IMG/VR virus record: IMGVR_UViG_3300046010_008210
Location: 1-38,912 of that record
Strand: one strand, 5' to 3'
From: a virus
Length of the DNA: 38,912 nucleotides
Shown here: positions 712-38,661 of the stretch, in pieces
How positions within the stretch are numbered: the first letter of the stretch is position 1
Layout: each line of letters starts with the position of its first letter
Notes under the pieces: model-generated
What the model was told of the DNA's origin: nothing
Seen by the model: the letters and a program-made list of their open reading frames with translations, nothing else
Databases searched by the model: none
Program-made: the position numbers and the translations under genes

Positions 712-738
712 GCTGCAAGGCTAACAGAACGCGCCGGT

Positions 739-1119: not shown

Positions 1120-1129
1120 GGGTTGAATC

Positions 1130-2884: not shown

Positions 2885-2888
2885 GCGC

Positions 2889-2930: not shown

Positions 2931-2934
2931 GCAC

Positions 2935-20225: not shown

Positions 20226-20435
20226 ATGAGCACCACACGCAAGCCGTTCACGTTCCGCGACTTGCTTGCAATCGTGTTCACGCTTCTGCTGGTCGTTGGG
20301 TCCGTTGGCGGCGCGATCTACTCCATCGCCAGCCGCCCACGCGAACCTGACGCCATGACTGCGGGGCAGGCGGTGCTCTGCGCCGGGTTGTTTCTGGCCT
20401 TTCTTTTCGGCGTGTCTCTCGGACGCTCCAAGTAG
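20226..20435 (+). CDS. Small two-helix membrane protein
   Basis: 69 residues from ATG 20226 (GGGGG just before). Two membrane helices: about 13-33 (LLAIVFTLLLVVGSVGGAIY) and 46-64 (GQAVLCAGLFLAFLFGVSL), joined by a short charged loop (SRPREPDAM). It is one of only two plus-strand genes, divergent from int and ending one base before the end of the giant gene on the other strand. That isolated, int-adjacent position suits a gene expressed in the lysogen, such as a superinfection-exclusion protein. A holin is also possible from topology. Function not established. Confidence 0.6.
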   Translation: MSTTRKPFTFRDLLAIVFTLLLVVGSVGGAIYSIASRPREPDAMTAGQAVLCAGLFLAFLFGVSLGRSK

Positions 20436-20436
20436 C

Positions 20437-23400
20437 CTACTTGCTCCAGTTGTCGATCGCCGTTTTGGTGTCGAAGATGTACTGAGATGGGATCCCTGCC
20501 GCGTCCAGCAGCTTCGAGGATTGCAGCAGTGCCCGCATGTACCGGTCGTTGGCGGTTACCGTGTCCTTGCGAACCTTTCGCGTTGGGGCTTCTGTGGCCT
20601 TGTACAACTCGTGCAACGCTCGGCCGCCATAGTTCACCAGATCCACCATCGGAACGTCCAGCAGGCTATCGGTGCTCTCGGTTGCCAGGTACTTCTGAAT
20701 CGCATTGACCCCCAAACCGCCGCCGGGGACCAGCGACACCGCCTCCTGAATGAACCGGTTCTGTGCCGACGCCTTGGCCTTGTCGTACCCCTTGCCAAGC
20801 AACGCCGCCCAAGCCGCAGATACCAGCCCCGACATGGCGGAGCCAAACAACAGCACCAGCGCCGTCCGCGCGGCTTTCCCCCATGAGATTTCGCCCGCCG
20901 CCGCCCGCGCGTACGCCTGATAGATCATGTTCATGGCTTTGGCCGTGTCGCCGGTAAACGCCGTCATCATGCCGATCAGCGTGTTCTCTCGGGCGTCCAG
21001 TTGAATGTCGTTGGCGTACTCGATGGTCGCCGTGTTGGCTGTCCGCTCGAACGCTCGCATCGCCCGGCGCGCCGCCCACTTCTTTCGCTTCAGTTCCGGC
21101 CAGTCCTTCGGGGCCTTCTCCAAAAGCACCCGGTACGCCACCACCGCGCCGTGAGCGTCAAAGTAGTTGCTCACCGTGATTGCATCGAGCGTCTTCCGCC
21201 ACGAACGCCACGCGCCCGCCGCGGATGCCGTCGCCGCGTCCTTGTCCAGCGTTGCCACCGCCTTGGCAATCCCCGCGAGGTTGCGAATCGTCGCCGTGCC
21301 AGCGTCCTTAAAAGCCGCGTCGGCGAAGTCATTGTTCAGGGTGTCGTAGAAGTTGCCCGCAGACCCGCCCGCCCACCGCTCACGCGCGGCCGGGGAATAC
21401 TGCATCAGTTCCCGGTACGCCGCCACGCTCGGACGGAACGCCGTCGATGCAACGTCCTTCACGCCCAGTTCGTTGAGCATGCGCGACGCCGAGCCCACCG
21501 CGTTGCGGATCCAGGTGGGGAACCGCAGCTGAGTCTTTGCCCGTGCCCACATCGAGAGCATTTCACGCCACACCCGCCCGATGGGGCTGTAGGTCGTGCC
21601 GCCGCTCCACTCCGCGATTCGGCGCTTCAGCCGTTCGATCGTCTCGGCGCCGTACTTGGCCGTGATCCGCTGTACCGTCTCGGGGTGCAGCAGCGTCTGC
21701 ATGAGCAGTTTGACCCGCTCCGCCTTGCCGATCGTCGTGGATGCCGACTTGCTCCGGGTCAGAATGTCCATGCCAAAGTCGCCAATCAGGATCGGCGTCT
21801 TGCTCGGGCCAAGCCGCTCCTGCATGTACCCGGCCTCTTCCATCGCCGCGATGTAGTTGCCACGCCACGATGTGGGCGTGCCACGCATCTCCGAAAACTC
21901 ACGGTTGAGCTTGATACCCCAGTATCCGGGCACCTTCTCAAGAAACACACCCTTCAACCGCTTGTTCACGCTGCTCAACTTCTCGAAATAGTGCCGGTCG
22001 TATGCCGCCTTGAGTTCGTCCACCATGGCCCGCTGCGCCGGAGTCAACGCCTTGGCCACCGATGCCAGATCGTCCTCGGTGATGCTGATCGGGTCGCTGG
22101 TCCGCTGCGTGCCGAACTGGATCTTCTGGCCCTTCTGGATGCGGGCAATGAACCCCGTGTCTTCCGACGAGGCGTACAGGTACATCGCCTGCCCCAGCGT
22201 CATCGTCCGCACCTTGCCGCCGCTCTTCGCCTGGACGGTCTTTTGCAGGTTCTCGCCCAGCGAGCCCGACACCTCGGCCAGCATCCGCGACGAGCTTTCG
22301 TACCCGTGCTTCTGAACGATTTCGCCCATCAGGTCGCGGAACTGGTGATCGAGCTCCAAAGCGTCGTTCCGCCCCTTCTCCACCTCGCCGAACAACCGAC
22401 GGAACGGGCCCGCCCGCACGCCGCCGTCCAGCATCTGCATCATCGAATCCCAGTTCGTCCGCCGGCGGAGTTGGCGGAGCAACCAACCGGTTTCGACGGT
22501 CTTCGTGCCGCTTCTGGGCAAGTCGGGCTGTGACTCCAGCGAGGTAATCATGCCTTCGCGGATTTCCTTCGCCGCGACCAGTTCGCCCTTGATCCGCACC
22601 ATGTCCAAGTTCTTCTGCTGGAACCGTGCCGACAGGATCGCCCGCGCCGCGTTCTCAATGTCATCGAGCAACACCCGCAGATCCGCCGCCGTGACGCGCT
22701 CGGTGCTCGCGTTCGCCGTACCGCCCGCCGCAGTCGTGAGACTCCCGCCGCTGCCGAGGGTCCGCAGCCGCCGCTTGAGGGTCTGCAACTGCCCCACCGC
22801 CGCGTTCAGCTGCTCCCGAAGTTCCGGCTCCAGTTCCATCCGCGTGGATGCCGTGCCCGCCGCCTTCTCGGCCTGGCGGATCTGCTGCTTGGCCATGTGT
22901 TCGAGCAAGTCACGCTCGAGCTTGCCCGCTTCGATGCCCAAGCGTGCCAGCGTCTTCACATCCCGAACGGCCGTCAGGTACTTGCCCCGAAGCTCGCGCG
23001 GCATGTTCTCACGGATCAGCCGCACCAGTTCATCCCGGAGCCCCTGCTGCAATGCCGCCCGGTCCCGCTCGGCATCCCGAGCCGCGTCCACCTTGCCGCG
23101 CGTCTCGATCCGCCGCATGTCGGTCTGCCGCTTGCGCTCGGCCCTGATCTTCTCCCGCAGGGTGGCAATCTTCGCCGCGGCCTCCGCCCGGCCCGCCTGC
23201 TTGGTCTGCCGGATCGCCGCGGCGACCGCCTTGGCCCCCTGCGTCTGCATCTTCGTCATCAACTTGCCGGTGGCCCGCAGCCGTTCCTTCATGGCCGCGC
23301 GGCCTGAAATCTGTGCGTCTGGTCCGTCTTTGGTCATCTCGGCTACGAGCTTCGCGCGAGCCTGCTTTGCCTCCCGGAACGCCGCTACCCGCTCACTCAG

Positions 23401-26400
23401 TTCCTTCATCGCCGCGGCATGGGCATCGGTCACCTTGGCCGGGTCGTTGCCTGCGTCCTTCAGGAGTGCCCGAGCGGCGCGCATGATTCCCGCTCGCTCA
23501 CCCTTCATCCACGGTTGGCGGGCGATTACCTCATCGACCATCTTCCCGAGCCGCACCTTGCCGACCTTGCCGCCGCTCTGGATCTGCTTGGCCGCCTTGT
23601 ACGCTGCCGCGACCGCCGCCGTGAGAATCACCCGCTGGCGTGATGCCTTGACCGACGCGGGCCGCTGGTCGGCCTTGGCGGGCTTGGGTGCCTTCTCGGG
23701 CTTCGGGGTGGCTCGCACCTTGTCCGCCTGTGCCCGCAGTTCTGCCGCCTGCTGGCGTGCCGCCTCCGCCGCCTTGTACCGGCCTTCGGGGTCCGTGCCC
23801 GCCGCCGCGGTCGATTCCTCGCCCTTGGCAAGCCGCTCCAGCCGGGCCGCTTGTGCGTCCAGGTGTTCGGCTTCCACATCGCGGGCCGCGCGGGTCAGGG
23901 CTTCTTCCGTCGGTTCCTTGCCCGCCGCCTCGATGATCTGGTTGGTGATTGCTTCCGCCGCCTTACGAGCACGGAGGGGCACCGGGCCGACCTTGCCCGC
24001 GATCTGGAGCACCGCCTGCGCGACCTTCACGCCGCTACGGACGACGAGAGCCGCCGCCCAGCGTCCGATCTGGTACGCATTCTCGGCTTGGTCGATGGGG
24101 TCGATGCCGCTGCTCATCTTGCCCTTGTTCATTGCGGCCTTGGTGCGGAGTTTGGCGCGGGCGTCCTTTTCGGTGGCGTCGGCCCATGCGGCGATCTTCT
24201 CCGTCACGGTTCCGCTCACGCCCTCGACCTTGGCGGATTCCATCGGGGCCACGCGGCGTCGAATCGCCTCTTCGATCATGGGCATGAGCTTGGCAAACTC
24301 CGCCTTGCTCCACCACGCGGGCGCGGATTCGTAGTACGCCGCCGTTTCGTGCGACGCGCCCGACTTCCCCCGCTTGGTCGCCACATACTGCTCGAACAGA
24401 CGCGCCCAGATTTCGCGGGGCTCTCGCCAGTACGAAGTCAGCTTGAACTGCTGCGCCTTCAACTGGTTCTTTTCGTCCGCGTCCTCGATCTTGGAAGCGT
24501 TCTTCTTGGCAATCTTCGAGGCCATCCACGGATCGCTCATTGTTTGAGCGGCCTTTGCCATCAGTTCCTTGTCGGGCTTCAACTCTTCTGCGATGCTGTA
24601 GTTGCGGGAGTTCTCCGACAGCGAGCTGATCTTGCCGCCGCCCAGTACCTTGCCCTGACGATTGCGGGCGGTTGCCTCCACACCGAGAGCCTTGCCGCCC
24701 TCGTAGTCCATCCAGTGGCCCATCTCGTGAGCCAACGCCTTGGTTTCAAACGGGCCGATGACGGTGCCGTATGACACGGACCTGTCCGTGGGGTGGTACA
24801 GGCCGGACGCATTGCCCTCCATGAATGGGTACTTGCCGCGCGTGTGAACGATGGTCAGGCCAGTGTGCCGCATCACGTCCGCGAGCGGCCCAACTGCCTC
24901 TTCGATTTCCGCAACGGCGGCACCCATCGCCTTCACTTCTTCCGGGGTGATCGTTGTGCCATCCTGCCGCTTGACCTTCACGCCACGCTCTTTCAGCATG
25001 GTGGTATCGACCGCAGCGGTGATGTTGCCGAAGCTGGTGTTGCGCCCCTTGTCGTACCTGGCCCGTGCTGTAACCGCCTTCTTGAACTCGGGGTTTGCGT
25101 CCACGATTGCAGCCGGAACCTTCTCGCCAGTGCTGATTGCCTTCTTGACGGTGGCGACGTACTGCTGCCGAATGTCGTCCCACTGCGACGAATCCAGATC
25201 GCTCTCGTGCTTCTTCATCGACTCGTAGCGGGCTTCCCACACGGGGATAGACACCTCCAACTGCCGACGACGCTTCGAGGGAATCCGGGTCTTCAGTTCT
25301 TCCTTGCCGCGTTCGATGGCCTTGTAATACTGAAGCAGCAAGCTCTTGATGCCGCTCCGCATGAACTCGGGCTGCGTCTTCTCCCAAGCCTTCTTCGGTG
25401 CTGGCGGAGTGTCGGACGGTGCCGCCGCTTCCACCTTCGCCGCCTCCGCGCCGGTCGCGGGTGCGGCCTCATCCGCACGGCTCAGCATCGCGTCATCCGC
25501 CGAATACAGCCCCTTGGTGTTGTCGCGGCTCTTTGGTCCGCTCAAGGTGTAGTTTCGCAGGTACGGCGGTTCTGTTTCCGTCGAACCAGAATCGACGCCT
25601 TCAAACGCCGCGTTCAACTTCGCCGACCGAATCCGCTCCGCCTCCACCTCGTTCCGCGTTGCCCGAGTCTGCACCTCGGTGACAGTGAACACCTCCGCAC
25701 CGTTCCGAATGCGAACCTTGTCGCCGACCTTGAACCGCTCGATGGGGTTGCGCTGTGTGTCTCCGGGTGTGGCCTCTGCCTTCTTCGGCTTGGCTGATTC
25801 GATTCGCTGCTTGCCCGCCTTCGTCTTGGTGTACGCCCCGGTTCGACCGCTCGCGGGTTCAAGCCAGCCGCGCTTGATCGCCGCCGCCCGGATCGCGTCG
25901 AGTGCCGACTGGGCCGTGCCGTCGTTGGATTTACCGCCGTCCTTTGAGTTGGTGTCCCAACCCTTGGGGTCGGTGATCTTCCACACGACGTATTTGTTGG
26001 CGTACATGCCCATCTCGTATCGCTCGACCGTCAGGCCCCATTCCGCAGCCGCCGCGGTCACGGTCGCCGGCACCGGCTTGGCCATCTCGGCATCGACGGC
26101 CTTGCGTGCCGCTTCGCTCTCGGCCTCCTGCTTGGCCGCGCGTACACGCTCCGCTTCGGCACGTTCGCGGGCCTTGCCGCCTTTGAGCAGCCGGTGGGGT
26201 GTGGCTGTCACCGCATTCTTTGCTCCATCGGGGATGATGTAGACGTAGCCGCCCGGCAGGCCCGTCTTGGTCACTTCGCCCGAGAACATGCCGCCGCCTG
26301 GCGTCAATGCCTCGATGTGATCGCCCTCGTACATCTCGCCATCGTCGGGTGTGGCCGTACTCTTGGGGGATGGAGCCGGTGTCTCTGGCCCCATGTCGAT

Positions 26401-29400
26401 CGCACTGGCCAGAATGCCCTTAGCCCCGGCGTAGAAGTTGCCCTTTGCGGCAGTCTGTCCGCCCTTGCTTGGCTTTGACAACTTCGGGTAATCCTTGAGT
26501 ACCCGCTCGTCCACCTCTTCGCCGCGAGCAATCGCACCGCGCACCGCGTCCTCGTGGAAGTTCTCGTAATCCGCGTTTGGGCTTGCCGCAGTGCCTGAGT
26601 TTTCATTCTGGCCGAGATACCGCCGATTGGCCCGCTGCATGGCCACCCATTCGGCCCGCGTCACTTCGTCCGGCGCGTACCCCTTGGCCTCAAACTCATC
26701 GAGGTTCATGCTTCCGGCAATAGTGTCGGTCTGTTCGTTCTTGCGTGCGCCGGACTTCACAGCCTCCGCGTTCTTTGTGGCGGAATCCTTCGCCCTCTTC
26801 GCCGCCACCATCTCACGCAGCTTCTTGACCGTCCCAACGATTCCGCCCACCCGCTTTACCATCTTCTCGTTGGTAGTGTGGTAATCTGCTGTTCTCGGGT
26901 CCGCGTTCGCCTCGCGCACCACCAACACCGGGCTGGTAGTCTGCACTTCCCATTCCTTGGTTCCGAACTCGCCGTCGCTGGCAAACTTGACCAGAACACG
27001 GTCGCCCTTTGCAAGCGGCTTGTTCTTCTTCTCGCCCAACTCGGCCAGCAACGCGGCCCGGTCCATGCTGGCCACGGGGGTCAGTTCACTCTTGGGTGTG
27101 CGCACCCGTTCAAGTGTGTTTCTTTCACCAACCCGGTATCCTGGCCAAATGTGAACCGCGCCGCCCAGCAGTCGATCCCACGCAAAGACCTGCGGATTGG
27201 TCAGCGATTCATTCTCGCCGTCAATCTGCGGAGCCTCAATTACTGCCTGTCCCAGCACCTTGTCCGCGTCATCGACAATCTGCACAACGCTATGAACCCG
27301 CCCTGTTTCATTGGCCAGTTTCGCAGCCAGTTCCAATGGCTGGCGTGTCTGCTGTGCCGAAAACGGAACTCCGGTTTTTGTTCCGGCTGTCCTCGGTGGC
27401 GCCTTCCCGCCATTCACCCATTGAATCATCAAGCCGCGCAACTGCTGCTTCATGTCGCCAGCGTTCTCGAACATCTGCAAATGCGGGCGCACTCGCTCCG
27501 AAATGATTGCCATTCCCTTCCGGGAATCGGTGGCAGCAGATCCTTCGAGGGCCGGTTCACTCTTAGGTGAACTATCCGGTTTTGCCGGAGGGTTCGCAAG
27601 GTCGGGGTAGTCGGCGAGGACGGACGCGGGGACGGGCTTGCCTTCGGAGAGGGCACGGCCAACCGATACGCTGTGTGCGTACGCGCTGTAGTTCCGCGAC
27701 AACTCCCGAGCCTTGGCGTCCGCATCCACCGCCGCAGAGGCGCGACGATCTTGCAGCGTTGGCACCGTCAGCACCACGCCGTTCGGCGTCGATCGCACCA
27801 AGTTCCCAGCGGCTTTCATTGCCGCGTCACGGGCCTTGTTTGCAGCGGCCACCTGCTTGGCACCGTCCGCACTGAACTCCGCCCGCGTCATCTCCCAAGG
27901 CTCTCTCGTGCCGCCCCCACTCTCCCGCTCGGACGACTGAGCCCCAATCACGGGGGCCGATGTGCTGGTCTGTGCAGCTACGGGGGTGGGGGTGGGGGTC
28001 TTTGTGGCCGGGGCGTCAGTGATGAACACCTCCGACAGTGATCCGCCGCGAACCACCGTTCGGACTCGCACGCCGTTGCGAACGCTGACGGCCTTGTAGT
28101 CGTTGGGGGTCTTGGCCCATTCCGCTTTCGTCATCCGCACCGCGCCCGTCGCGTCGATGTTCACCAGCGGCGCAGCCTTGCGTTCGTCGCTCTCCCGCTT
28201 CCTGCTCGCCTCGATGGCCTTCTCGCGGGTGTCCTTGCGTGCCTGCTCCTTGGCAATCTGAACGGGGTCGTTCCGGTCGGCCTTGGCTCGCAGGTCCGAT
28301 GCACGGGCCTTGAGTTCCTTGGCCTTGCGAATGTCGTTCAGTGAACCTTCGATGGCTTGATTGGTCTTCTTTTGCAGCCCAGAACGAACGCGACCACTCC
28401 CGCCAGTGACCGCAGCACCGGGGGCATTGTCAAACCGTCGGCTCGCCTTGTTGGAAAGTGCGTCGGCCCGTGCGTCCAGTTCCGCCGCCTGTGCCCGCAG
28501 GCTTTCGGCGTAGGTCGCTGGCTTCGCCACCTTCTTCCCGGCGTCGGGAACTTCGGGGGTGACTTCGGGGGTGACTTCGGGGGCATACGCCTCCCCAATC
28601 GCATCCGCCGCGGCACGATCCAACGGGGCCACCTGCCGCCCAATCGTCGCGTCCTGCTCGGCCTGCATCTGCCGCGCCTGCGAGGATGCACGCGAAGCCT
28701 GACGCCGCGCGAGCATCTTCCGGCGAAGGTTGGACATGCCGTCGGGGGACAATTGGCGACCACGGCTCACCGCTTCCGGTTCTTCCATCGTGGCAAGATC
28801 GGGGGCCGCTTCTTCAACTCCGGGCACTGGTGGGGCTACCTGTCCCGTCGCACCAGGCATAACCGCCGCGTCCGCCTTCTCCGCCGCAACCTGCTCCGGG
28901 CCGCTCAGTTCGTCCCAAAGACGCTCGATGTACGCATTGGCCGCGTCATCGTCCCGCGTGGCCTGCTGATTCCAGTCGGCCCGCAGATCGTCCAGCAAAG
29001 GCGCGGACGGGTCGGGACCATCGGGCACCGTTGGCGCCTGCGCTGGCGGCGTGGGCCGCTGCTGTACCTTCCGCCTCTGGCCGTAGGCATCCGTCGCCAC
29101 CGCAACGCCACCGCCTGCTCCACCCATCAGACCGCCGACGACAGCCTCCGCAGCCTTGCCGGTTGCGTACTGGCCCACCGCATCATCGGGCAACTGGCCG
29201 CGAATCGGCTGGGCCGCGAGTCCGCCAACGTCCTGAATCACGCTCTGGCTCGGTTCGGTCAAGCCCTCTTCCAGCATCGACCGCCCGACCGTTCCGACGC
29301 CGCGGCGAATCGTGCCGCCCAGCGTGTTGGTGCCCACCTTGGCAACCGCACCTTCGGCACCCGTCAGCGAATCGAGCAACGCCGCCGGCACTGCTGCCGT

Positions 29401-30234
29401 GCCCGAGACACCGAACGCACGGGCCAACGCTTCCCGCTGATCCATCGCCGGGTTCGCTTCCATGATTCGGTTGGCCGTTTCCGCCATGCCGCTGGCCCAT
29501 TGGCTGAGCATGTTCGGAGCAAACGCACCCGCCGCGGCACCTGCAGGTCCACCGATTGCACCGCCGACCAATCCGCCGCCCATGCTCGCGCCCATGTCGA
29601 TCATCGTGCCGCCTGCCGCTCGGGCGATGCCTGCCCCGGAGAATGGGGACGGAGTGCCGCCCATCGCTGCGTCATACGCCGCCACTGGTGCGTTGCCGAT
29701 GGTCCGCAGAACGTCCGCCCGCTCGCCGAGAGCACCGGACACCGCGTTGAGCATGGGGGAACGCGGGGGTGCCGCCAACGAGTCCACCGCTTGGTTCGCC
29801 AGATTGCCGCCCGCACCCTGCAGGCCCGGCGACACCATGTCGAGCGTGTTGCCGACTGCAGGCAGCACCGCAGCTGCAGGATCGTTCGACGCCTCGAAGC
29901 CGCCGCGTACCAGGGTGAGCACATCCGCCGCCGCAATCGGGATCCGCTGGGCGAGGCCAATGCCGAAGTTCTCGAGCATCCCCTGCCGCGGGCCCGGAGC
30001 CTGCACGGCGGGACGATCAAACGCGCCGGCCCCTGTCGGCTGCTGGTATCCACTCACGGATCCGGCGAGCATTCCGGGCGATTGGGCGGTCTGGGCGGTC
30101 GATGCAGCCATCGCCGCACGCCGCGCCTCGATCCGTGAACGCAGCGACGGCGCTGGGGCCGCAGTCTGTGCCATCGCCGCGCGGCGTGCTTCGATGCGGT
30201 CACGCAGGGTCTGGGTCGTTCCTACTTGGCTCAT
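20437..30234 (-). CDS. Giant polyvalent virion protein with zincin domain
   Basis: 3265 residues from ATG 30234, with a strong ribosome site (AGAGGTG) overlapping the upstream stop. Layout: a Gly/Ala-rich membrane-active segment near 210-360 (MGGGLVGGAIGGPAGAAAGA); disordered Lys/Ala/Arg linkers; three degenerate modules ending in ADYPDL-type motifs (about 875, 1248, 1710); several SH3-like patches (KGDRVLVKF, VGDKVRIRN); a zinc peptidase-like domain with HEMGH (His1836, Glu1837, His1840) and a likely third ligand Glu1941 (REIWARLFEQY); a long basic coiled-coil stretch (about 2050-2500); and a large C-terminal helical region with hydrophobic segments near 3090-3130. This matches phage large polyvalent proteins injected with the DNA. 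Roles could include ejection, wall opening or host-protein cleavage. Confidence 0.8.
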   Translation of the reverse strand: MSQVGTTQTLRDRIEARRAAMAQTAAPAPSLRSRIEARRAAMAASTAQTAQSPGMLAGSVSGYQQPTGAGAFDRPAVQAPGPRQGMLENFGIGLAQRIPIAAADVLTLVRGGFEASNDPAAAVLPAVGNTLDMVSPGLQGAGGNLANQAVDSLAAPPRSPMLNAVSGALGERADVLRTIGNAPVAAYDAAMGGTPSPFSGAGIARAAGGTMIDMGASMGGGLVGGAIGGPAGAAAGAFAPNMLSQWASGMAETANRIMEANPAMDQREALARAFGVSGTAAVPAALLDSLTGAEGAVAKVGTNTLGGTIRRGVGTVGRSMLEEGLTEPSQSVIQDVGGLAAQPIRGQLPDDAVGQYATGKAAEAVVGGLMGGAGGGVAVATDAYGQRRKVQQRPTPPAQAPTVPDGPDPSAPLLDDLRADWNQQATRDDDAANAYIERLWDELSGPEQVAAEKADAAVMPGATGQVAPPVPGVEEAAPDLATMEEPEAVSRGRQLSPDGMSNLRRKMLARRQASRASSQARQMQAEQDATIGRQVAPLDRAAADAIGEAYAPEVTPEVTPEVPDAGKKVAKPATYAESLRAQAAELDARADALSNKASRRFDNAPGAAVTGGSGRVRSGLQKKTNQAIEGSLNDIRKAKELKARASDLRAKADRNDPVQIAKEQARKDTREKAIEASRKRESDERKAAPLVNIDATGAVRMTKAEWAKTPNDYKAVSVRNGVRVRTVVRGGSLSEVFITDAPATKTPTPTPVAAQTSTSAPVIGAQSSERESGGGTREPWEMTRAEFSADGAKQVAAANKARDAAMKAAGNLVRSTPNGVVLTVPTLQDRRASAAVDADAKARELSRNYSAYAHSVSVGRALSEGKPVPASVLADYPDLANPPAKPDSSPKSEPALEGSAATDSRKGMAIISERVRPHLQMFENAGDMKQQLRGLMIQWVNGGKAPPRTAGTKTGVPFSAQQTRQPLELAAKLANETGRVHSVVQIVDDADKVLGQAVIEAPQIDGENESLTNPQVFAWDRLLGGAVHIWPGYRVGERNTLERVRTPKSELTPVASMDRAALLAELGEKKNKPLAKGDRVLVKFASDGEFGTKEWEVQTTSPVLVVREANADPRTADYHTTNEKMVKRVGGIVGTVKKLREMVAAKRAKDSATKNAEAVKSGARKNEQTDTIAGSMNLDEFEAKGYAPDEVTRAEWVAMQRANRRYLGQNENSGTAASPNADYENFHEDAVRGAIARGEEVDERVLKDYPKLSKPSKGGQTAAKGNFYAGAKGILASAIDMGPETPAPSPKSTATPDDGEMYEGDHIEALTPGGGMFSGEVTKTGLPGGYVYIIPDGAKNAVTATPHRLLKGGKARERAEAERVRAAKQEAESEAARKAVDAEMAKPVPATVTAAAAEWGLTVERYEMGMYANKYVVWKITDPKGWDTNSKDGGKSNDGTAQSALDAIRAAAIKRGWLEPASGRTGAYTKTKAGKQRIESAKPKKAEATPGDTQRNPIERFKVGDKVRIRNGAEVFTVTEVQTRATRNEVEAERIRSAKLNAAFEGVDSGSTETEPPYLRNYTLSGPKSRDNTKGLYSADDAMLSRADEAAPATGAEAAKVEAAAPSDTPPAPKKAWEKTQPEFMRSGIKSLLLQYYKAIERGKEELKTRIPSKRRRQLEVSIPVWEARYESMKKHESDLDSSQWDDIRQQYVATVKKAISTGEKVPAAIVDANPEFKKAVTARARYDKGRNTSFGNITAAVDTTMLKERGVKVKRQDGTTITPEEVKAMGAAVAEIEEAVGPLADVMRHTGLTIVHTRGKYPFMEGNASGLYHPTDRSVSYGTVIGPFETKALAHEMGHWMDYEGGKALGVEATARNRQGKVLGGGKISSLSENSRNYSIAEELKPDKELMAKAAQTMSDPWMASKIAKKNASKIEDADEKNQLKAQQFKLTSYWREPREIWARLFEQYVATKRGKSGASHETAAYYESAPAWWSKAEFAKLMPMIEEAIRRRVAPMESAKVEGVSGTVTEKIAAWADATEKDARAKLRTKAAMNKGKMSSGIDPIDQAENAYQIGRWAAALVVRSGVKVAQAVLQIAGKVGPVPLRARKAAEAITNQIIEAAGKEPTEEALTRAARDVEAEHLDAQAARLERLAKGEESTAAAGTDPEGRYKAAEAARQQAAELRAQADKVRATPKPEKAPKPAKADQRPASVKASRQRVILTAAVAAAYKAAKQIQSGGKVGKVRLGKMVDEVIARQPWMKGERAGIMRAARALLKDAGNDPAKVTDAHAAAMKELSERVAAFREAKQARAKLVAEMTKDGPDAQISGRAAMKERLRATGKLMTKMQTQGAKAVAAAIRQTKQAGRAEAAAKIATLREKIRAERKRQTDMRRIETRGKVDAARDAERDRAALQQGLRDELVRLIRENMPRELRGKYLTAVRDVKTLARLGIEAGKLERDLLEHMAKQQIRQAEKAAGTASTRMELEPELREQLNAAVGQLQTLKRRLRTLGSGGSLTTAAGGTANASTERVTAADLRVLLDDIENAARAILSARFQQKNLDMVRIKGELVAAKEIREGMITSLESQPDLPRSGTKTVETGWLLRQLRRRTNWDSMMQMLDGGVRAGPFRRLFGEVEKGRNDALELDHQFRDLMGEIVQKHGYESSSRMLAEVSGSLGENLQKTVQAKSGGKVRTMTLGQAMYLYASSEDTGFIARIQKGQKIQFGTQRTSDPISITEDDLASVAKALTPAQRAMVDELKAAYDRHYFEKLSSVNKRLKGVFLEKVPGYWGIKLNREFSEMRGTPTSWRGNYIAAMEEAGYMQERLGPSKTPILIGDFGMDILTRSKSASTTIGKAERVKLLMQTLLHPETVQRITAKYGAETIERLKRRIAEWSGGTTYSPIGRVWREMLSMWARAKTQLRFPTWIRNAVGSASRMLNELGVKDVASTAFRPSVAAYRELMQYSPAARERWAGGSAGNFYDTLNNDFADAAFKDAGTATIRNLAGIAKAVATLDKDAATASAAGAWRSWRKTLDAITVSNYFDAHGAVVAYRVLLEKAPKDWPELKRKKWAARRAMRAFERTANTATIEYANDIQLDARENTLIGMMTAFTGDTAKAMNMIYQAYARAAAGEISWGKAARTALVLLFGSAMSGLVSAAWAALLGKGYDKAKASAQNRFIQEAVSLVPGGGLGVNAIQKYLATESTDSLLDVPMVDLVNYGGRALHELYKATEAPTRKVRKDTVTANDRYMRALLQSSKLLDAAGIPSQYIFDTKTAIDNWSK

Positions 30235-30237
30235 GTA

Positions 30238-31689
30238 TCACCTCTGGGCGTCGATCGCTTCAATCTGTTCGGTCGTCATGCCGCGGGCCAGCATCTCGTC
30301 AATCTCGGCGTCGGTCAGCTTGCCGGGGCCTGTAGCCTCCGCGGGGGCCTGCTGCTCGGGTGCCTGCTCTTCCGGCTCTTCCACTTGCCACCCAGCCAGA
30401 GACGCCGCACGCCGTGCCCTGCTGTCCAGTCGCCGGGCGTAATCCTCTGGCGGTTCGTCGGCACCAAACCATGACGTTTTCCGCGCCGCCTCCATGTCCT
30501 TCGCCACATCTCGGAACTGGTCGGCAATTGGATTGCCCTTGGCCCACGGCAGTTTGCGGCCTTCGCCCTTGGGAACTTCGATTTCCATTGCGGACCCGTC
30601 CGAGCCCTTCATGGTCACTTTCGTTGAGGTTCCACCAAACGCCTTGTCTTCCCCGCTGCCGGTGGCTCGCCGCTCGTTCACGATGCGACCGCTCTGCACG
30701 CGGTCCCTTGCCATTGCGTCCACTTCTTTGTCGGTGACGTTCTTCCCATACTTGGGCCGCATGATTGTGAACTGCTGCTGCACCAGCGATTCAAACGCCG
30801 GGTCGGACGGATCGACGCCGCCCATTAGCCCCGTCTTCTTTCCCGGCGCGTACTTGCCCAATCCCTCCGCCTGCTCGTACTTCTTCTGGCCAAGGTCGTT
30901 GATCGTCGCGCGGTCGAACCCTTCCACCAGTTGGCCAAGCTGCGCCTCTTCCGGGCTCGCGGGTCCATCGACCGCGCCCGTTACCGTCGCCGGCGTCAGC
31001 GCCGCACGCAGTTGTCCCTCTCGCTGCAAGTCCATCAGTTTGCCAATCAAGCGGCTCGGGTCGTTGGAACTCTCCGCCTCCATGACCAGTGCCTGCATCT
31101 CGGGATCGGCAAGCTGCTTTGCGCTGAGCTTCTTTCCGAGGACCATCTGCAAGATGCCTTCAAACTGCCGCCGCCGCGTAGTGCTCCGCAGCACATCGAA
31201 GAGTTTGGATTGCTGGCTGTAGTGCCCGTTTTCGACTGTGTTGGCCATCGGGTCCGCAAATGACGGCGAGCCCTCGGGAACCAGCATGGAATCCGGCTGC
31301 TTCGACCTAAGCAGTTGCCGGTTCAGGTTGCGGTACATCTCGCCCTCGGCCTGTGCCTGCGCTTCCGCCTCCGCCTGCCGCTTCTGGGCAAGCGCTAGGT
31401 GTTCATCCCTCAGACCAAGATCCCGCATCTGGGCCATCTGGTTCCACATGTCGTTGTCGGTGGACCGCTGGAAGTCCTGCTGCCACCGATCGGCCTGGGC
31501 CGTCTGCTGGGCCTGCCGATTGGCGAACTCCTGCTGCTGGAACTCGAAGTTCCGCGCGTCCCGCCGTGCCGCCTCATCCTGCATGGCGTAACGGTTCTGG
31601 AAGTCCGCCCGGCGTTCGGCAATGCCGGTGCCGAGTTGCATCCCTTGGAGCCAGTTCTGTGCAAAAGAGTTGGGGTCGATCCGTGTCAT
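30238..31689 (-). CDS. Internal virion protein, coiled-coil
   Basis: 483 residues from ATG 31689. The N-terminal 120 residues are a Gln/Arg/Ala-rich helix (FQQQEFANRQAQQTAQADRW; LALAQKRQAEAEAQAQAEGE). The middle is mixed (FEGILQMVLGKKLSAKQLAD; SLVQQQFTIMRPKYGKNVTD). The C-terminus is Glu/Gln/Pro-rich, then a helical cap (LTDAEIDEMLARGMTTEQIE). It lies directly upstream of the giant gene, 3 bases apart, and downstream of another ejection-type gene. Such Gln-rich helical proteins beside a giant protein are typical of the set ejected with the DNA in podoviruses. Role inferred. Confidence 0.65.
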   Translation of the reverse strand: MTRIDPNSFAQNWLQGMQLGTGIAERRADFQNRYAMQDEAARRDARNFEFQQQEFANRQAQQTAQADRWQQDFQRSTDNDMWNQMAQMRDLGLRDEHLALAQKRQAEAEAQAQAEGEMYRNLNRQLLRSKQPDSMLVPEGSPSFADPMANTVENGHYSQQSKLFDVLRSTTRRRQFEGILQMVLGKKLSAKQLADPEMQALVMEAESSNDPSRLIGKLMDLQREGQLRAALTPATVTGAVDGPASPEEAQLGQLVEGFDRATINDLGQKKYEQAEGLGKYAPGKKTGLMGGVDPSDPAFESLVQQQFTIMRPKYGKNVTDKEVDAMARDRVQSGRIVNERRATGSGEDKAFGGTSTKVTMKGSDGSAMEIEVPKGEGRKLPWAKGNPIADQFRDVAKDMEAARKTSWFGADEPPEDYARRLDSRARRAASLAGWQVEEPEEQAPEQQAPAEATGPGKLTDAEIDEMLARGMTTEQIEAIDAQR

Positions 31690-32223: not shown

Positions 32224-33498
32224 TTATCGGTCGCCGTAGCCGCTGGGTGATGTGGGCCAACCGCCCGCGGGCCTCTGGTTTGGGTCGTATGCCGGCGGGT
32301 TGTTCGTGGTCGTCGCCGCTGGCCGCGAGAAGTTCGCAGATTGGCCCATCATGTTTCCGCCAAACGCGCCAAGAGCGTTGCCCCATGTGGCACCCGCCGC
32401 GGCGCTCGGGCTCGCCCCACTGAAATACTGCTGCGTGCTTCGAGCCAGCCACGGGTTCATCTGTGCCGAGCTTGCAACCTGTGCCCTGAAGTCCGCTTCG
32501 CCCCGCTGGTTCATCGCTACCCGGTCCTGAGACGCGAGGTTGAGCCCCATCCGCCCGCTGCTGCGTGCCTGGTCGAGATTGAGCGTGTTCCCCGCAAGGC
32601 TGGTCATCAGGCCAATCTGCCGATCGCCAAGGCTCCCAAGTGCCCCCTGCCGCCCCTGCTCCAGCTGCCGAGCGTTGCCGCCCAACTGCTGGCCGAGCAC
32701 CGACGATGCCCCGAGGCCGCGCGACATGAGCCGAGCCTCAGTGAGCCGGTTCGTGCTCTGGAGCGTGTTGGCAAAGTCGGCGTTGATCCGGTCGCGTTCG
32801 CCCTTGCCGAAGTTGCGGGCCTGCCCCTCGATGGCGCGGGCCGACTGCATGAGCCGCCCCGAATCCGCATCGAAGCGGTTCAGGTTGGCCGCACCTTCAG
32901 CCTTCGCCTGCTCGGTCAACGCGGCGTACCGCGATGCCGCACCCGGCCCAAGGTTGCGGAACTCGCCAAGGTCCAGAGCGTCGGCGGGGATTGATGCCGC
33001 TTCGTTCTGAAGCTGTGCCGTCAGTTCCTTCTGCTGCTTCAGCAATGCGCCAATGTCCACCCCGTCCGCTGCGGCCCGCTTCTTGTCCCAGTCCGCCGGA
33101 ACAAGCCGGAGTTTGTCGGACGGGTAGTAGCCGGCCGCCTTGCTTGGATCTTTCCCGCCCTTCACCACTCGCTCAGGCTTCCCGTACTTGTCAAGATTCG
33201 CCTGAATCTGCTTCAGCTGCTCGTTGAGCGCGGTTGTTCGCTTGGTCGCGTCCGGGTCGCGGAACAGCTGGCGGTACTGGTCCTGCCCCAGCGTGGCACG
33301 CAGGTACTTCTCGGCCTCGTCTGGACCAAGCATCTGGGCAAGGTATCGCGCCTGCCCTTGATTGAGGTTCTTCTGGTCGAAAAGGCGGTTTTCCTTTTCC
33401 GCCCGCAACGCAGCTGCTGCCGAAGCCTTGGAGGCATTCGACGACACACCAGCGCCAACCAGTGACGCGCCCGCTCCGATTACTGATGCCCACGCCAT
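32224..33498 (-). CDS. DNA ejection-type internal virion protein
   Basis: 424 residues from ATG 33498. It starts with an Ala/Gly/Ser/Val hydrophobic stretch (MAWASVIGAGASLVGAGVSS), a hallmark of phage ejection proteins that insert in the host membrane. Residues 40-330 are Gln/Asn/Arg-rich helices (RLFDQKNLNQGQARYLAQML; LTEARLMSRGLGASSVLGQQ; ARQLEQGRQGALGSL). The C-terminal 80 residues are low-complexity (AAGATWGNALGAFGGNMMGQ), ending in an Asn/Pro/Gly tail. The build is like T7 gp14 or P22-type injection proteins. It is followed by a structural gene and the second internal virion gene. Confidence 0.7.
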   Translation of the reverse strand: MAWASVIGAGASLVGAGVSSNASKASAAAALRAEKENRLFDQKNLNQGQARYLAQMLGPDEAEKYLRATLGQDQYRQLFRDPDATKRTTALNEQLKQIQANLDKYGKPERVVKGGKDPSKAAGYYPSDKLRLVPADWDKKRAAADGVDIGALLKQQKELTAQLQNEAASIPADALDLGEFRNLGPGAASRYAALTEQAKAEGAANLNRFDADSGRLMQSARAIEGQARNFGKGERDRINADFANTLQSTNRLTEARLMSRGLGASSVLGQQLGGNARQLEQGRQGALGSLGDRQIGLMTSLAGNTLNLDQARSSGRMGLNLASQDRVAMNQRGEADFRAQVASSAQMNPWLARSTQQYFSGASPSAAAGATWGNALGAFGGNMMGQSANFSRPAATTTNNPPAYDPNQRPAGGWPTSPSGYGDR

Positions 33499-34064: not shown

Positions 34065-34520
34065 TCAGGTCCATGTGACCGGCTCATCAGTGGGTGAATG
34101 GGCTTGGCCAACGATCGACGCGCGGATGTACCGGCTCTGGGCACCGGCGCCCGCGTCAATGTCGAGCACCACGGAACCTGCCGCCCCGGTAATGTACCGA
34201 TACGCCATGTTGGCTGTGATTTCCTGCAACTGGGCACCTGTCACCAGCGTGATGGTCTGCGAGCCTGCCGGCGCTCCCGTCGCCGTCGATGACACCCACA
34301 CCTCAAGCACATAGAGCCCCGAACACTCGGCCCCGTCTCGGTTGATGACTTGGAAGGTTGCCCGCCGCACATTCGACGCCTCGGCGCCCACCGACACCCG
34401 CACCTCCAGCGGTGGCATCCCGATCAGCCGCGCGGCATCGCGGACCCACCGGAACAGATCCTGCATCGTCCGCGTCACTTCGGCCCGGATGACCTTGGGG
34501 ATAATGTTGGTGTACGGCAT
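34065..34520 (-). CDS. Beta-rich structural protein
   Basis: 151 residues from ATG 34520. A helical N-terminus (IIPKVIRAEVTRTMQDLFRW; VRDAARLIGMP) is followed by strand-rich text (ATFQVINRDG, LYVLEVWVSSTATGAP, SVVLDIDAGAGAQSRYIRAS). This mix resembles small tail or adaptor proteins with an Ig-like fold. It sits between the glycosyltransferase and the cupin gene. No family is recognised. Confidence 0.55.
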   Translation of the reverse strand: MPYTNIIPKVIRAEVTRTMQDLFRWVRDAARLIGMPPLEVRVSVGAEASNVRRATFQVINRDGAECSGLYVLEVWVSSTATGAPAGSQTITLVTGAQLQEITANMAYRYITGAAGSVVLDIDAGAGAQSRYIRASIVGQAHSPTDEPVTWT

Positions 34521-34524
34521 TGGG

Positions 34525-35340
34525 TCAGTCCTCCATCAGCGCGGCAAGGGGCGTCTGCTTCTCCCGGTCGTACCAGGTGCCCGCATAGTGGTGGTTCCCC
34601 ATCGCGTGATCCGGCCAGTTCGTGACCTTCTTGTGGTCGAATGGGGCGGGGAGCGGGTTGAAGAGCTGCCACGGAAACACCACGCAATCCGGGTGGCCGT
34701 GGATCTGGGAGGCGAGGTAGTACGGCCCGGTCGTCTCCAGAATGCCCTTCCATTCCTTCTTCGGGGGCCTCTGCTCGTACCGGGACCGCGGCACGAGCTT
34801 CTTGCCCACGAGGCGGTATCGCAGCCGGTTCCATGCCCCTCGCCACCCGTGAATCGGGATCAGCCGCGGAGCCACGCCCCGCCACATGTTCCGCACCGCT
34901 GACCACATCGCCGGGTGATTGGTCTCGGCGCCGAACAGGTAGTTCCCGCAGCACGGCCCCCACTCGTCGGCGTTGAACAGTTGCACGCCTTGCAACAGTT
35001 GGTCGATGTTCTCAAACGGCTCAAAGTCCAGATCGGAGTAGACCCCGCCCAGCTGCGCCACCAGTTCATACCGCAGAATGTCAGATCGTGCCGCCCACGC
35101 TGCACGCTCGCCAAACCACCGATCCGCGTAGTGGTAGACGTACCGATTGATGATCGGGGGGTGTGGCCGCACATCGTCCCACGGATGCCCCACCGCTTCC
35201 ATGTGGGCCTCGGGCCGATCGGTCCAGAGGATCATCCGCCAATCAGGATGCAGACGCCGCCATGCCGCGGCATAACCGCACAGGTGAGGCGGGATTGCTC
35301 GCGGCCCGAGCCAAATCTGGTGGAGTACCTTGGGGATCAT
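34525..35340 (-). CDS. Glycosyltransferase, GT32 / OCH1-like
   Basis: 271 residues from ATG 35340, which overlaps the stop of the tail gene (ATGA). The family signature is plain: MIPKVLHQIWLGP at the N-terminus, then AARSDILRYELVAQLGGVYS and a DXD metal site (Asp103-Leu-Asp105) that binds the nucleotide sugar. PF04488-type enzymes add sugars, often mannose, to glycans or proteins. After about residue 170 it is basic and Trp-rich (WRGAWNRLRYRLVGKKLVPR). The position inside a virion-gene operon is unusual: it could glycosylate a virion protein or alter the host surface in lysogens. No signal peptide or membrane helix. Confidence 0.85.
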   Translation of the reverse strand: MIPKVLHQIWLGPRAIPPHLCGYAAAWRRLHPDWRMILWTDRPEAHMEAVGHPWDDVRPHPPIINRYVYHYADRWFGERAAWAARSDILRYELVAQLGGVYSDLDFEPFENIDQLLQGVQLFNADEWGPCCGNYLFGAETNHPAMWSAVRNMWRGVAPRLIPIHGWRGAWNRLRYRLVGKKLVPRSRYEQRPPKKEWKGILETTGPYYLASQIHGHPDCVVFPWQLFNPLPAPFDHKKVTNWPDHAMGNHHYAGTWYDREKQTPLAALMED

Positions 35341-37334
35341 TGTTCCGCACCGCCGCCCCATTCCTCGTTGCCGCTGATGACGCTGCCGCCAAGCACGCCG
35401 GAGCCAGGCGAACCGCCCGTAGGCAACGACCCGAGGCCGGGGCCGCTGATGGCCGAACCGCTTCCGGCGCCGCCCGACGATGACCCGGCCGGGACTCCGC
35501 ACGGTGTGCCAACCGCCAACGCCGCCCTCCATCCCGCGCGGCTAATGCTCCTGCCCGTGTAGGTGATGGCGTCCAGACCCTCGAATACAAATGATTCGCC
35601 CGCCGTGGCATTGCGAAGCTGCACCGCCAGAGCGGGGCCGCGCTGCCGCACCAGTGTCCGGTTCGGCGTGCTGGTGAGTGTGTAGGCACCAAGGCTCCAC
35701 CGCTCGGACGTTGAGTACGCCGCCTCGGGCGTCTTGCCGCCGTAGATGGTCATGGTCGCGTTGCCGCTACTGCTGCCCAGCAGGGGGATCACCGAATCCA
35801 GAATCGTGTCGTTGTGAAACGGCTCCTCATCGACAAGGCTCAGGGTCAGATAGGCGTCGATGGCGGTCGTCCCGTAGTCGCTGGGCGTGTCCGAGTCGTT
35901 GAACTGAACAATGTACCCGTTGTCGGTTCCGAACACCGGGCGGCCCCTCCAGACCGTTCCACAGGTCGGGGCAAAGTTGTACCGCTCGGGGAAGAACCCA
36001 CCGTTCCCACCCTGGTACTGCCCAATCCTCTCGTCGTAGTAGAGGTGGGTCGCCGTGCCTGTGTCTGGCGTGATGCACACATGCAGGCCATGCCGGGCCG
36101 GATCCCGCACCAGCGTGACGGTGTAATCCTCGCGGCTCTGGCGTGCGAACTGGATCAGGCCCGCCAGAGTCTCCCGGCTCACCGACACAGGAGACGCCGC
36201 GGCGTTGATAATGAACAGTCCTTCGGGGGCATGTACCGCCGTGACACCCTCGGCAATCGTCGTGATCGCATTGGGGCCGCTGCACCCAACGCTCGTCGTC
36301 AGGGGCGACACTTCAGCGCCGCCGTCGGCAGGATCGCCGAGCAGTGCGTACAGGCTGTTCCGACACCCGATGATGAGCGTGTTGTTGACCGCGACAGAAA
36401 GAGCAATGATCGCGTCCCCAACCTGCTGGTTGCGTCCCACGCCGATCGCCACCGCCCGGCCCTCGGCCAGCTCGCCGGTGTCCCATGCCATCGCATCGCT
36501 CAACGCGGACCCGTACAACACGTTCGATTGGTCTTGGATGCCAGCGAGCCAGATGCGACCACGGTACTGGCAGGCAATCGTCGCCGTGGTGGTTCCAGTT
36601 CCAGTGCTGCCCGGCAGCGACCCCGACGTAGGAGCCCACGCTACCACGGTCTTCGCCGAGGCGTTGATGACCACCGCCTTACCGCCGCCGACGCCGTAAA
36701 CGAGGCCATCGAGAACCGCCAGCGACACCGGCGCCGTCGATGGGAACGCCCTAGACCCGATCAACTGCGTCCGCTCACCGTCCGCGCCGCTCGCCCACAC
36801 ATCGCCGCCGGCTACTTGAATCAGCACGTCTTCGACCGTGACGGACGCCAGACCCACCTCGGCCACGGTCGCCGCGAGCACCACCGCACCGTCGATGCTG
36901 GAGACAAAGCCCCAATGCTTGTACCTGTTCAGATCAGTCGTTGCATAAGACACTTCCACCTCGGCCCCGCTGGTCTTGACCACGCTGCAAGTGATGGTTT
37001 CGGCGGTCAGCCGCACCTTGAGCGTGAACGTCTCGCCCGAAGCTATCCCGTGCGCTTCGGTGTCCAGTGCCGCGGCGACCACCCCGAAAGTGATCTTGCG
37101 GATGATGACATTGGAACCCTCGATGCCGCATTCGTACCCGGTGCGACCGTCAAACGATCCACGCACGAACACCTTCACGTTGTGCGTGTAGTTCGCGCAC
37201 TGTGCCTGCACCTCTGCCGACGAGGGAAGCGGGATGGATGGCCCGGTGAAAATGTCCAGGTTGGGGTTCCACAGATCGCGCGTGGTGCCGCTGTGCGTCA
37301 GAACGCCCGAAGTCGTGTCCCGTGCCCATGCCAT
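35337..37334 (-). CDS. Large beta-rich tail protein (nozzle/tubular type)
   Basis: 665 residues from ATG 37334 (MAWARDTTSGVLTHSGTTRD). Almost all strand-forming, with repeated propeller-like blade patterns (LAVLDGLVYGVGGGKAVVIN; IACQYRGRIWLAGIQDQSNV; ATHLYYDERIGQYQGG; VWRGRPVFGTDNGYIVQF). The last 60 residues are a Gly/Ser/Pro linker (AGSSSGGAGSGSAISGPGLG). Size, strand content and place at the head of the late structural run match tail-nozzle or tubular proteins such as T7 gp12 or P22 gp10, which close the tail and carry receptor-binding parts. The call is structural inference. Confidence 0.65.
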   Translation of the reverse strand: MAWARDTTSGVLTHSGTTRDLWNPNLDIFTGPSIPLPSSAEVQAQCANYTHNVKVFVRGSFDGRTGYECGIEGSNVIIRKITFGVVAAALDTEAHGIASGETFTLKVRLTAETITCSVVKTSGAEVEVSYATTDLNRYKHWGFVSSIDGAVVLAATVAEVGLASVTVEDVLIQVAGGDVWASGADGERTQLIGSRAFPSTAPVSLAVLDGLVYGVGGGKAVVINASAKTVVAWAPTSGSLPGSTGTGTTTATIACQYRGRIWLAGIQDQSNVLYGSALSDAMAWDTGELAEGRAVAIGVGRNQQVGDAIIALSVAVNNTLIIGCRNSLYALLGDPADGGAEVSPLTTSVGCSGPNAITTIAEGVTAVHAPEGLFIINAAASPVSVSRETLAGLIQFARQSREDYTVTLVRDPARHGLHVCITPDTGTATHLYYDERIGQYQGGNGGFFPERYNFAPTCGTVWRGRPVFGTDNGYIVQFNDSDTPSDYGTTAIDAYLTLSLVDEEPFHNDTILDSVIPLLGSSSGNATMTIYGGKTPEAAYSTSERWSLGAYTLTSTPNRTLVRQRGPALAVQLRNATAGESFVFEGLDAITYTGRSISRAGWRAALAVGTPCGVPAGSSSGGAGSGSAISGPGLGSLPTGGSPGSGVLGGSVISGNEEWGGGAEQ

Positions 37335-37337
37335 TCG

Positions 37338-37550
37338 CTACCACCCTTCCATGCAAGCCGTGTACCGCCCCCGCGCGTCCGCCTCGCACACCTCCCGCTG
37401 AAGTGAAGCGGCGTCCGGATACCTGACGGCACACCGCGTTAGATCGTGCTGGTAGTCGTTGAAGCACACGGATGGCGTGACAATCGGCTTTTGCCAAATG
37501 CTCCAGCGTTCCGGCACCAGAATCAGCATCATGAGTAGGAATCCGATCAT
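37338..37550 (-). CDS. Small Cys-rich membrane-anchored protein
   Basis: 70 residues from ATG 37550 (overlaps upstream TGA). A short hydrophobic N-terminus (MIGFLLMMLILVPERW) is followed by a charged region with four Cys (CFNDYQHDLTRC, REVCEADARGRYTAC). The spacing suggests two disulphides outside the cytoplasm. It may be a spanin-like or other lysis accessory; no lipobox is seen. Confidence 0.55.
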   Translation of the reverse strand: MIGFLLMMLILVPERWSIWQKPIVTPSVCFNDYQHDLTRCAVRYPDAASLQREVCEADARGRYTACMEGW

Positions 37551-37864
37551 GGGTGTGACGGCCTCCCTGATTGCTCCAGCAGGCCGCGGATGTATCCAAG
37601 CTGGCCCGCAATCTCGCCAAGGGCCTTGTTCAGATCGGTCTTGAGTTCTGCCGCCTGGGTGAGTGCCGAGCGTGCGTCCGCCGCGGCAGCCTTGGCCTCG
37701 CGTGCAGCGTCAGCCACCGCGCCCTGAATGGACTGAACGTAGAGGGCCCCACTCACCACGCAGGAGATAATGAGAGCGAGAACCTTGCCCCACTCACCGG
37801 CGCTCATGCGGGCCGTGATGGGAGTATCGGGGCCGATGCTGGTGTTGCTCTGTAGGGTGGTCAT
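37547..37864 (-). CDS. Single-helix membrane protein with coiled coil (holin/lysis candidate)
   Basis: 105 residues from ATG 37864 (overlaps upstream TGA). A polar N-terminus, one membrane helix at about 27-44 (KVLALIISCVVSGALYVQ), then a long Ala/Lys/Glu helix (DAAREAKAAAADARSALTQA; ELKTDLNKALGEIAGQLG). Topology is compatible with a type III-like holin or a spanin subunit. The three adjacent membrane genes 37338-38661 probably work as a unit. Confidence 0.55.
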   Translation of the reverse strand: MTTLQSNTSIGPDTPITARMSAGEWGKVLALIISCVVSGALYVQSIQGAVADAAREAKAAAADARSALTQAAELKTDLNKALGEIAGQLGYIRGLLEQSGRPSHP

Positions 37865-38661
37865 GCCTTCGCTTTCTTCTGGAACGTGGCCTTGATCTTG
37901 TCAACATGCTTGCGAACCCAGAGCTTGGTCTGCTCGGCGTTCGCCTTGTCCTTGAAATCTGGAACGAATGGCTTAATCGCCTCCACCGTCCGCACCACAT
38001 CCGTGGCCACCTTGCGTTCAGCAATGATGCACCACGCCGCGTACCCAGCCGCGATGATGGCGCCGCCAATGGCAATCCACGCTCGGTATTGGAGGATCCA
38101 CATGCCCGCCGCACATACCGCGACGATTGCAAGCCCGGTCAGCACGCCCTGCCACGAACGCAGCCACACCCCGCACACCACAGCCAGGCCGAGCCCGGCC
38201 ACGCTTGCGCCGATCAAAAGAGTGTTCAGTGTGCCGTTCGCCTTGTCCTCAAGCCGTGCAATCTCCCGGTTGGCGTTGGCCAGTTCCGTGTTGATCTTGG
38301 CCGACGATTTCTCTTCCTTGGCCAGCTTGTCGATCAGGCTCAGCACCGTGGCATGTACCTGGCGGAGTTCTTCGACCGCCGCGGCAATCTCTCCGGTCTG
38401 CTTTGCCACCTCGGGCACCGCCGCGGCAATCTCCGTGTTGGCCTCTTCGATCTGATTCGTGGACCCACGCAAACGGGCTTCTGCCTGCTTCGCGTCAATC
38501 GTGGCTCCGGCAAGCGACGACGCAGAGGCACCTACCGCCCGCCGGGGCACGCCGCACCCGCCGATGATGCTCAATGCCGCAAGCACAAAGACAGCGAAAG
38601 CTACCCAGAAGATTGTCCCATAGCCGAGGTTTGCAAGAGTGTGTTTGGTTGCCTTGCTCAT
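37861..38661 (-). CDS. Multi-helix membrane protein, possible lipoprotein
   Basis: 266 residues from ATG 38661 (overlaps upstream TGA). An N-terminal hydrophobic segment ends in IIGGC (Cys36), a plausible lipobox. Residues 58-140 form a coiled coil (TEIAAAVPEVAKQTGEIAAA; INTELANANREIARLEDKAN). Three membrane helices follow at about 145-166, 171-190 and 195-213. The C-terminus is basic and charged. The mixture of lipobox and later helices is unusual. It may be a lysis or host-envelope protein; no family recognised. Confidence 0.55.
   Translation of the reverse strand: MSKATKHTLANLGYGTIFWVAFAVFVLAALSIIGGCGVPRRAVGASASSLAGATIDAKQAEARLRGSTNQIEEANTEIAAAVPEVAKQTGEIAAAVEELRQVHATVLSLIDKLAKEEKSSAKINTELANANREIARLEDKANGTLNTLLIGASVAGLGLAVVCGVWLRSWQGVLTGLAIVAVCAAGMWILQYRAWIAIGGAIIAAGYAAWCIIAERKVATDVVRTVEAIKPFVPDFKDKANAEQTKLWVRKHVDKIKATFQKKAKA

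Follow-up and report, generated by a model that had tools for sequence, protein, structure and literature searches.

What does a phage protein of more than three thousand residues do once its gene is read, and what would the peptidase at its centre cut? This question is raised by a 38,912-nt stretch of viral DNA (IMG/VR record IMGVR_UViG_3300046010_008210, positions 1 to 38,912; here called the window), for which a 3265-residue polyvalent virion protein with an HEMGH zincin domain had been predicted. Giant injected proteins with zincins are already known, as is the clade with HExxHxxD and an upstream His in phage polyvalent proteins (Iyer et al. 2017, PMC5512222). New in the present analysis are the N4-type N-terminus of a protein that lies outside the N4 family, the ejection-cluster slot of the gene, the occurrence of the zincin on MuF and free-standing proteins, a re-reading of the LPD1 domain and the unusually large parts of the giant that have no relatives. 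We consider it likely that the giant is an ejection protein with the layout of N4 gp50 and a working zincin that is delivered into the cell.

The giant gene and its neighbourhood

The giant ORF lies on the minus strand and runs uninterrupted from the ATG at 30234 to the TAG at 20437 (20437..30234); the coordinates of the original prediction were exact, and only the strand had been left unsaid. The ATG is preceded by CAGAGGTGATACATG; its purine-rich part resembles a ribosome site and shares bases with the TGA that ends the gene before. The ORF recurs with 100% identity in a second IMG/VR contig. At 64% GC a long ORF alone is weak evidence of a gene; here homology backs residues 119–377 and 1689–2005.

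Read toward the giant, the genes are arranged as portal, scaffold, coat, adaptor (SU10_adaptor, E 1e-6), tail proteins and short tail fibre (E 1e-22), followed by those for 424-, 172- and 483-aa proteins, with the giant as the final gene of the virion block. The portal, coat, adaptor, tail fibre and ejection-like genes are all upstream of it on the same strand, and these neighbours support the proposed location in a virion protein gene block. The 424-aa product (32224..33498, minus strand) matches phrog_21132 'DNA ejection' over residues 1–47 (E 2.8e-4) and is a candidate ejection protein. The 483-aa product (30238..31689, minus strand), encoded directly upstream, is a further candidate by position and composition, being rich in Gln and Ala and coiled-coil-like by eye. 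The same slot is occupied by the giants of N4 (gp52, gp51, gp50), of Pelagibacter phage EXVC032P Baldr and of another viral contig (IMG/VR 3300046003_002654; hereafter L017). The giant gene closes a gene cluster of the ejection type, at the N4/pelagiphage position.

The second contig also bridges the window ends: it leads from window positions 34468–38912 through 5073 new bases (L041:4446-9518) to positions 1–3219, so that the genome is circularly permuted or circular, with a length of about 43,985 bp. The bridging bases hold coat, scaffold, adaptor and further tail genes, of which mainly the coat, scaffold and adaptor genes are missing from the window. Within the tail cluster, a DXD glycosyltransferase is encoded at 34525-35532 on the minus strand (Gly_transf_sug, E 8e-11), and the start of its longest ORF overlaps the end of the preceding tail gene. 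A 558-aa protein encoded next to the terminase gene (4814-6490, minus strand) has a weak GDSL/SGNH hydrolase match (E 8e-4) and is possibly a tail hydrolase.

An integrase gene follows the giant directly downstream, after about 350 bp, and genes for a RecE-type exonuclease, RecT and RusA are also found there, which makes the phage probably temperate. Between giant and integrase, a 69-aa ORF with two hydrophobic stretches (20226-20435, plus strand) is convergent with the giant. The closeness of the integrase would fit an alternative in which the giant is an early or lysogenic gene, placed beside it by chance, and no virion protein. This alternative is very improbable in our judgement, as the start of the giant is coupled with the 483-aa gene, its N-terminus is of the N4 type and three other giants occupy the same late slot.

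An N-terminal domain with an N4-type signature

The Gly/Ala-rich N-terminal part of the giant (residues 80–400; 29035..29997, minus strand) contains hydrophobic stretches and is a putative ejection/membrane domain. Its residues 119–377 are similar to the 3355-aa giant of L017 (24–25% identity, E 7e-9). A signature, M-L-E-E-G-L-T-E-x-x-Q ... G-A..G...GG.V, was located at residues 300–378 (29101..29337, minus strand) and aligned by hhalign with residues 384–438 of the N4 virion RNA polymerase, gp50. When the N-termini of the window giant, L017 and MW202426 were combined in a profile, the score against N4 gp50 384–438 was 36.6, compared with 22.2 for the best of 100 shuffles and 19.8 for the reversed control.

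In leave-one-out comparisons with locally shuffled controls, the scores were 31.3 for the window N-terminus (maximum of the controls 20.7, 0/60), 35.5 for N4 (maximum 25.3, 0/60) and 23.9 for L017 (maximum 21.5), and with MW202426 the profile was not recovered. Among 29 control proteins or segments, the score next to the 31.3 of the window N-terminus was 20.9. The link to N4 spans only about 55–75 columns with an hhalign probability of 10–23%, its support coming from the shuffles and controls, and the common part reads, loosely, M-x-E-E-G-x-x-x-x-x-x-Q followed by a Gly-rich helix. Baldr was tested as a further sharer of the signature and none was seen.

The isolated N-terminal domain of N4 gp50 inserts into nanodiscs and has been proposed to provide the ejection channel with its inner-membrane part (PMC12633501). 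For a membrane-seated ejection role of the giant, the signature in common with this domain is the chief argument, and it lends support to the membrane-active N-terminus of the original prediction. A signature of about 75 residues appears to be common to the membrane-inserting domain of the N4 virion RNA polymerase and to the window giant, a protein outside the N4 family, and it ties a giant without assigned function to the best-studied injected giant.

The central zincin domain

HEMGH at residues 1836–1840 is the sole HExxH in the giant, where 0.012 would be expected from composition. Relatives of this region were gathered from viral contigs and genomes, and 19 divergent sequences were aligned. 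Eight positions, H1836, E1837, H1840, D1843, Y1935, E1941, A1944 and R1945, were invariant in 19/19. They include the zinc-binding/catalytic motif H1836-E1837-M-G-H1840 with D1843 after it (motif at 24715..24729, minus strand) and E1941 on the third-ligand helix (residues 1935–1955; 24370..24432, minus strand). Upstream of the motif, H1797 was invariant in an alignment of eight sequences, but not in the Bacteroidota members. A conserved His before the motif and an Asp three residues after it mark a widespread phage MPTase clade (Iyer et al. 2017, PMC5512222), and both marks are present in the giant as H1797 and D1843.

An earlier AlphaFold model that included the preceding long helices gave no usable PDB match, and the trimmed domain was folded instead. 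For this domain (residues 1735–1995; 24250..25032, minus strand) AlphaFold2 gave a pTM of 0.76 and the order helix, strands, HExxH helix, ligand helix, with a pLDDT of about 85–90 at the early strands and the HExxH helix and about 50–65 in the insert that separates the two zinc helices. The PDB fold search with the trimmed model had no match at E 0.001, and the best eight (E 0.013–0.34) were all zincin peptidases. Best placed were M34-type lethal-factor catalytic domains (probability 0.95–1.00), collagenase G and PPEP-1 (TM by target 0.50), and lower-ranked matches were IrrE, deuterolysin and ArdC. The Pfam family ATLF (lethal-factor-like M34) did not match the giant itself and matched 7/19 alignment members (best 1.2e-4); the likeness to M34 is one of fold only.

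Among viral models (BFVD), the top fold matches were a 684-residue protein, which judged by its length is very probably the Leptospira phage relative described below, a 'capsid maturation protease', a 'Large polyvalent protein-associated domain' protein and a minor capsid protein. These matches, together with the published clade definition (Iyer et al. 2017, PMC5512222), speak for the phage polyvalent-protein class to which the giant had been assigned. The proposed HEMGH zincin with H1836, E1837, H1840 and E1941 is supported by invariance, AlphaFold2 topology and PDB matches; structure prediction around HEMGH, named in advance as a refuting test, returned a zincin topology. The domain has a zincin fold and an intact active site, and we predict that it is catalytically competent.

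Alternatively, the fold might be retained, in the manner of a C1-like domain, for a structural or packaging role, with no catalysis. The region of N4 gp50 that includes its HExxH domain is needed for encapsidation (PMC5512222), and those parts of the sources on N4 gp50 that were available report no proteolysis; yet every catalytic and zinc-ligand residue is invariant across carriers that diverge strongly, and we consider a purely structural zincin unlikely.

LPD1 as the probable glutamate-ligand helix of the zincin

A Pfam search with the whole giant gave LPD1 (PF18796) only, at residues 1933–1955, with 21.4 bits against a curated cut-off of 27 (E 2.7e-4). The match covers precisely the E1941 helix, residues 1935–1955 of which correspond to LPD1 positions 7–29. 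All but one of the zincin-alignment members (18/19) match LPD1 at E up to 0.1. Conversely, HExxHxxD was present upstream in 13/13 LPD1 matches from the genomes examined (at a distance of 72–88 residues in 11, read by eye in 2), a sample that is biased since these genomes were reached via the zincin. A search for LPD1 in 201 Chloroflexi-phylum genomes gave no match at E 1e-5 and was uninformative. Aureispira sp. CCB-QB1 (G009; L034, L047, L050, L052-L056) has seven LPD1 matches, all of them in short zincin proteins, and two of the contigs look near-identical there.

On the simplest reading of these sequences, LPD1, in Pfam a 'domain of unknown function', would be a part of this zincin. In every example examined LPD1 is the zinc-ligand helix of a peptidase, and LPD1-labelled proteins could be annotated as candidate peptidases.

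Other carriers of the zincin and its likely mode of action

The same zincin family was found on proteins of very different build. In two MuF minor-head proteins (L023 and L025) the zincin is C-terminal to MuF (PF04233, E 1e-9 and 5e-15, respectively). Zincin proteins of about 560 aa are encoded upstream of terminase/portal genes, with a Mu-type portal in one case (L010), and in L030 the zincin stands at the end of a 1589-aa protein. Free-standing zincin proteins have about 300–430 aa, those of Bacteroidota 300 aa. A Chloroflexi MAG protein (L028, 434 aa, 9575-10876) is 39% identical to the giant over residues 1689–2005, including a repeat that precedes the zincin, but is free-standing, adjoins a ThiF-type gene and has the motif HELLGH. 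The latter is an HExxxH, one residue longer than HExxH, and such lengthening has been reported for some polyvalent zincins. The 684-aa protein of the Leptospira phage LE1 type (AGS80813) has a zincin with HExxHxxD and 31% identity over about 130 residues, on a far shorter carrier.

This range of carriers, from a giant ejection protein over MuF minor head proteins to free-standing ones, points to a peptidase that is delivered in several ways. One possibility, though a doubtful one, is that the zincin serves mainly for self-processing and cuts the giant, either inside the head or once delivered, so that membrane N-terminus, cargo and C-terminal region are separated. Self-processing has been proposed in general for the zincins of polyvalent proteins, and P1 DdrB is processed before packaging (PMC5512222). 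Such a role would fit a very long chain with unrelated regions on both sides of a central zincin. However, the characterised protein closest in architecture, N4 gp50, enters the virion without being processed (PMC5512222), and the short free-standing and MuF-fused proteins of the same clade have little to release, which favours action of the zincin on other proteins, at least in these carriers. The argument is one of analogy, as the mode of action of a domain, cis or trans, may differ between carriers, and by it we slightly favour trans cleavage of a host protein over self-processing.

The zincin might instead attack the cell envelope, either cross-link peptides or envelope proteins, and open a path for the DNA. 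In keeping with this, the Baldr giant in the same slot has a stretch at its N-terminus that looks lysozyme-like by eye, and searches with a subset of the window ORFs recognised no muralytic domain; the missing hydrolase matches may reflect mere divergence. Against it, the fold neighbours of the zincin are protein endopeptidases and no cell-wall-binding domain was found. We found no positive evidence for the envelope target that had been considered for this protein, and regard it as distinctly unlikely.

The remaining regions of the giant

Outside the zincin/LPD1 region and the N-terminal signature nothing was recognised in the giant. Residues of about 400–1690 and 2000–3265 had no Pfam family above cut-off and no convincing relative in the collections searched. 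The 'repeated linkers' of the original prediction correspond to a motif of about 29 residues (..V..AL..G.PVP..VLADYPDL) at residues 854–882 (27589..27675) and 1227–1255 (26470..26556), with a weaker third copy at 1691–1719 (25078..25164), all on the minus strand. Copies 1 and 2 are 41% identical (E ~1e-3), and copy 3 stands immediately before the zincin, likewise in the Chloroflexi protein. Of the other features proposed, the Gly/Ala-rich N-terminus and the basic segment at residues 2100–2500 are both real as far as composition goes; the part rich in Ala, Lys and Arg was set at residues 2000–2480 (22795..24237, minus strand). SH3-like patches gave zero profile matches, a result that neither supports nor excludes them.

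The C-terminal region (residues 2560–3265; 20440..22557, minus strand), with one hydrophobic stretch at 3121–3147, is an orphan that matched only itself. Residues 2000–3265 had no relative among 50,697 phage records, and in viral contigs residues 2500–3265 matched only the same phage. Nucleotide and protein searches of these phage records gave no close relatives of the giant except the zincin of Leptospira phages. No RNA polymerase profile matched the giant or its segments, and NCBIfam and PADLOC gave nothing useful. An assignment of the C-terminus to LPD38 was rejected, with no profile match and an hhalign probability of 0.1% against the C-termini of L017, Baldr and MW202426. It was not detectably similar to N4 C2 and this candidate was rejected on sequence. 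A match to PHROG 22978 at residues ~2666–2779 (E 0.002 in the segment, 3e-4 in its own record) was too weak and short, and Pfam matches to ARM_TT21, SNAP, FlgM and C19orf12 were under cut-off and were treated as chance.

Proposed role of the giant

We propose that, among the ejection (internal head) proteins of a short-tailed temperate phage, the giant is the largest one, similar to N4 gp50 but with the polymerase replaced by other cargo. It would be made alongside the virion proteins and packaged in a few copies. During infection it would follow the smaller ejection proteins through the tail and refold on the inner face of the membrane; its N-terminal domain may be seated in the inner membrane of the host and there form part of the DNA-ejection channel. 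The N-terminus would be followed by a long linker and cargo region, the zincin and a large C-terminal region, basic and probably helical. After delivery the zincin would be at work and most likely cut a cytosolic or membrane-proximal host protein, of defence or regulation, in trans; in addition, it may set free some parts of the giant.

Comparison with known systems

The giant resembles the phage-type large polyvalent proteins (Iyer et al. 2017, PMC5512222) in being a giant late-gene protein and in its MPTase with HExxHxxD and an upstream His. It differs from them in that beyond zincin and N-terminus it has no catalogued domain, LPD38 being absent. The Baldr giant (2330 aa) shares the slot after the tail tubular proteins, an HExxH site and a large C-terminal region, but is related to L017 and, outside the motif, not detectably to the window protein.

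L017 shares with the window giant the N-terminal domain, the slot and an HExxH site. In contrast, it has a sliding-clamp-like domain of its own and an LPD38-like C-terminus, and its HExxH region is not closely related. In the 3355-aa giant (L017:8247-18311) the part that resembles a DNA polymerase sliding clamp covers residues ~987–1195 (phrog_947, E 3e-21; DNA_pol3_beta_2, E 1e-9); the words clamp, DnaN and processivity are absent from the 2017 polyvalent-protein paper (PMC5512222).

N4 gp50 (3500 aa, Schitoviridae) differs from the giant in its RNA polymerase domain, which was not recognised here, in a C-terminal region that is not detectably related, and in a zincin of another clade (HELVHAS, without the Asp). 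Both proteins have an HExxH domain followed by a C-terminal part of about 1100–1260 residues, and they agree in the N-terminal signature, in size and in being the last ejection gene (PMC12633501). The comparison suggests an exchange of cargo among phages on a single ejection chassis. We tentatively extend this to the view that the N4-type N-terminus might be a common chassis of giant ejection proteins in unrelated short-tailed phages, with interchangeable cargo (RNA polymerase in N4, the sliding-clamp-like domain in L017, unrecognised modules here), and that the roughly 2500 residues without relatives may include new injected effector domains beside a host-targeting peptidase.
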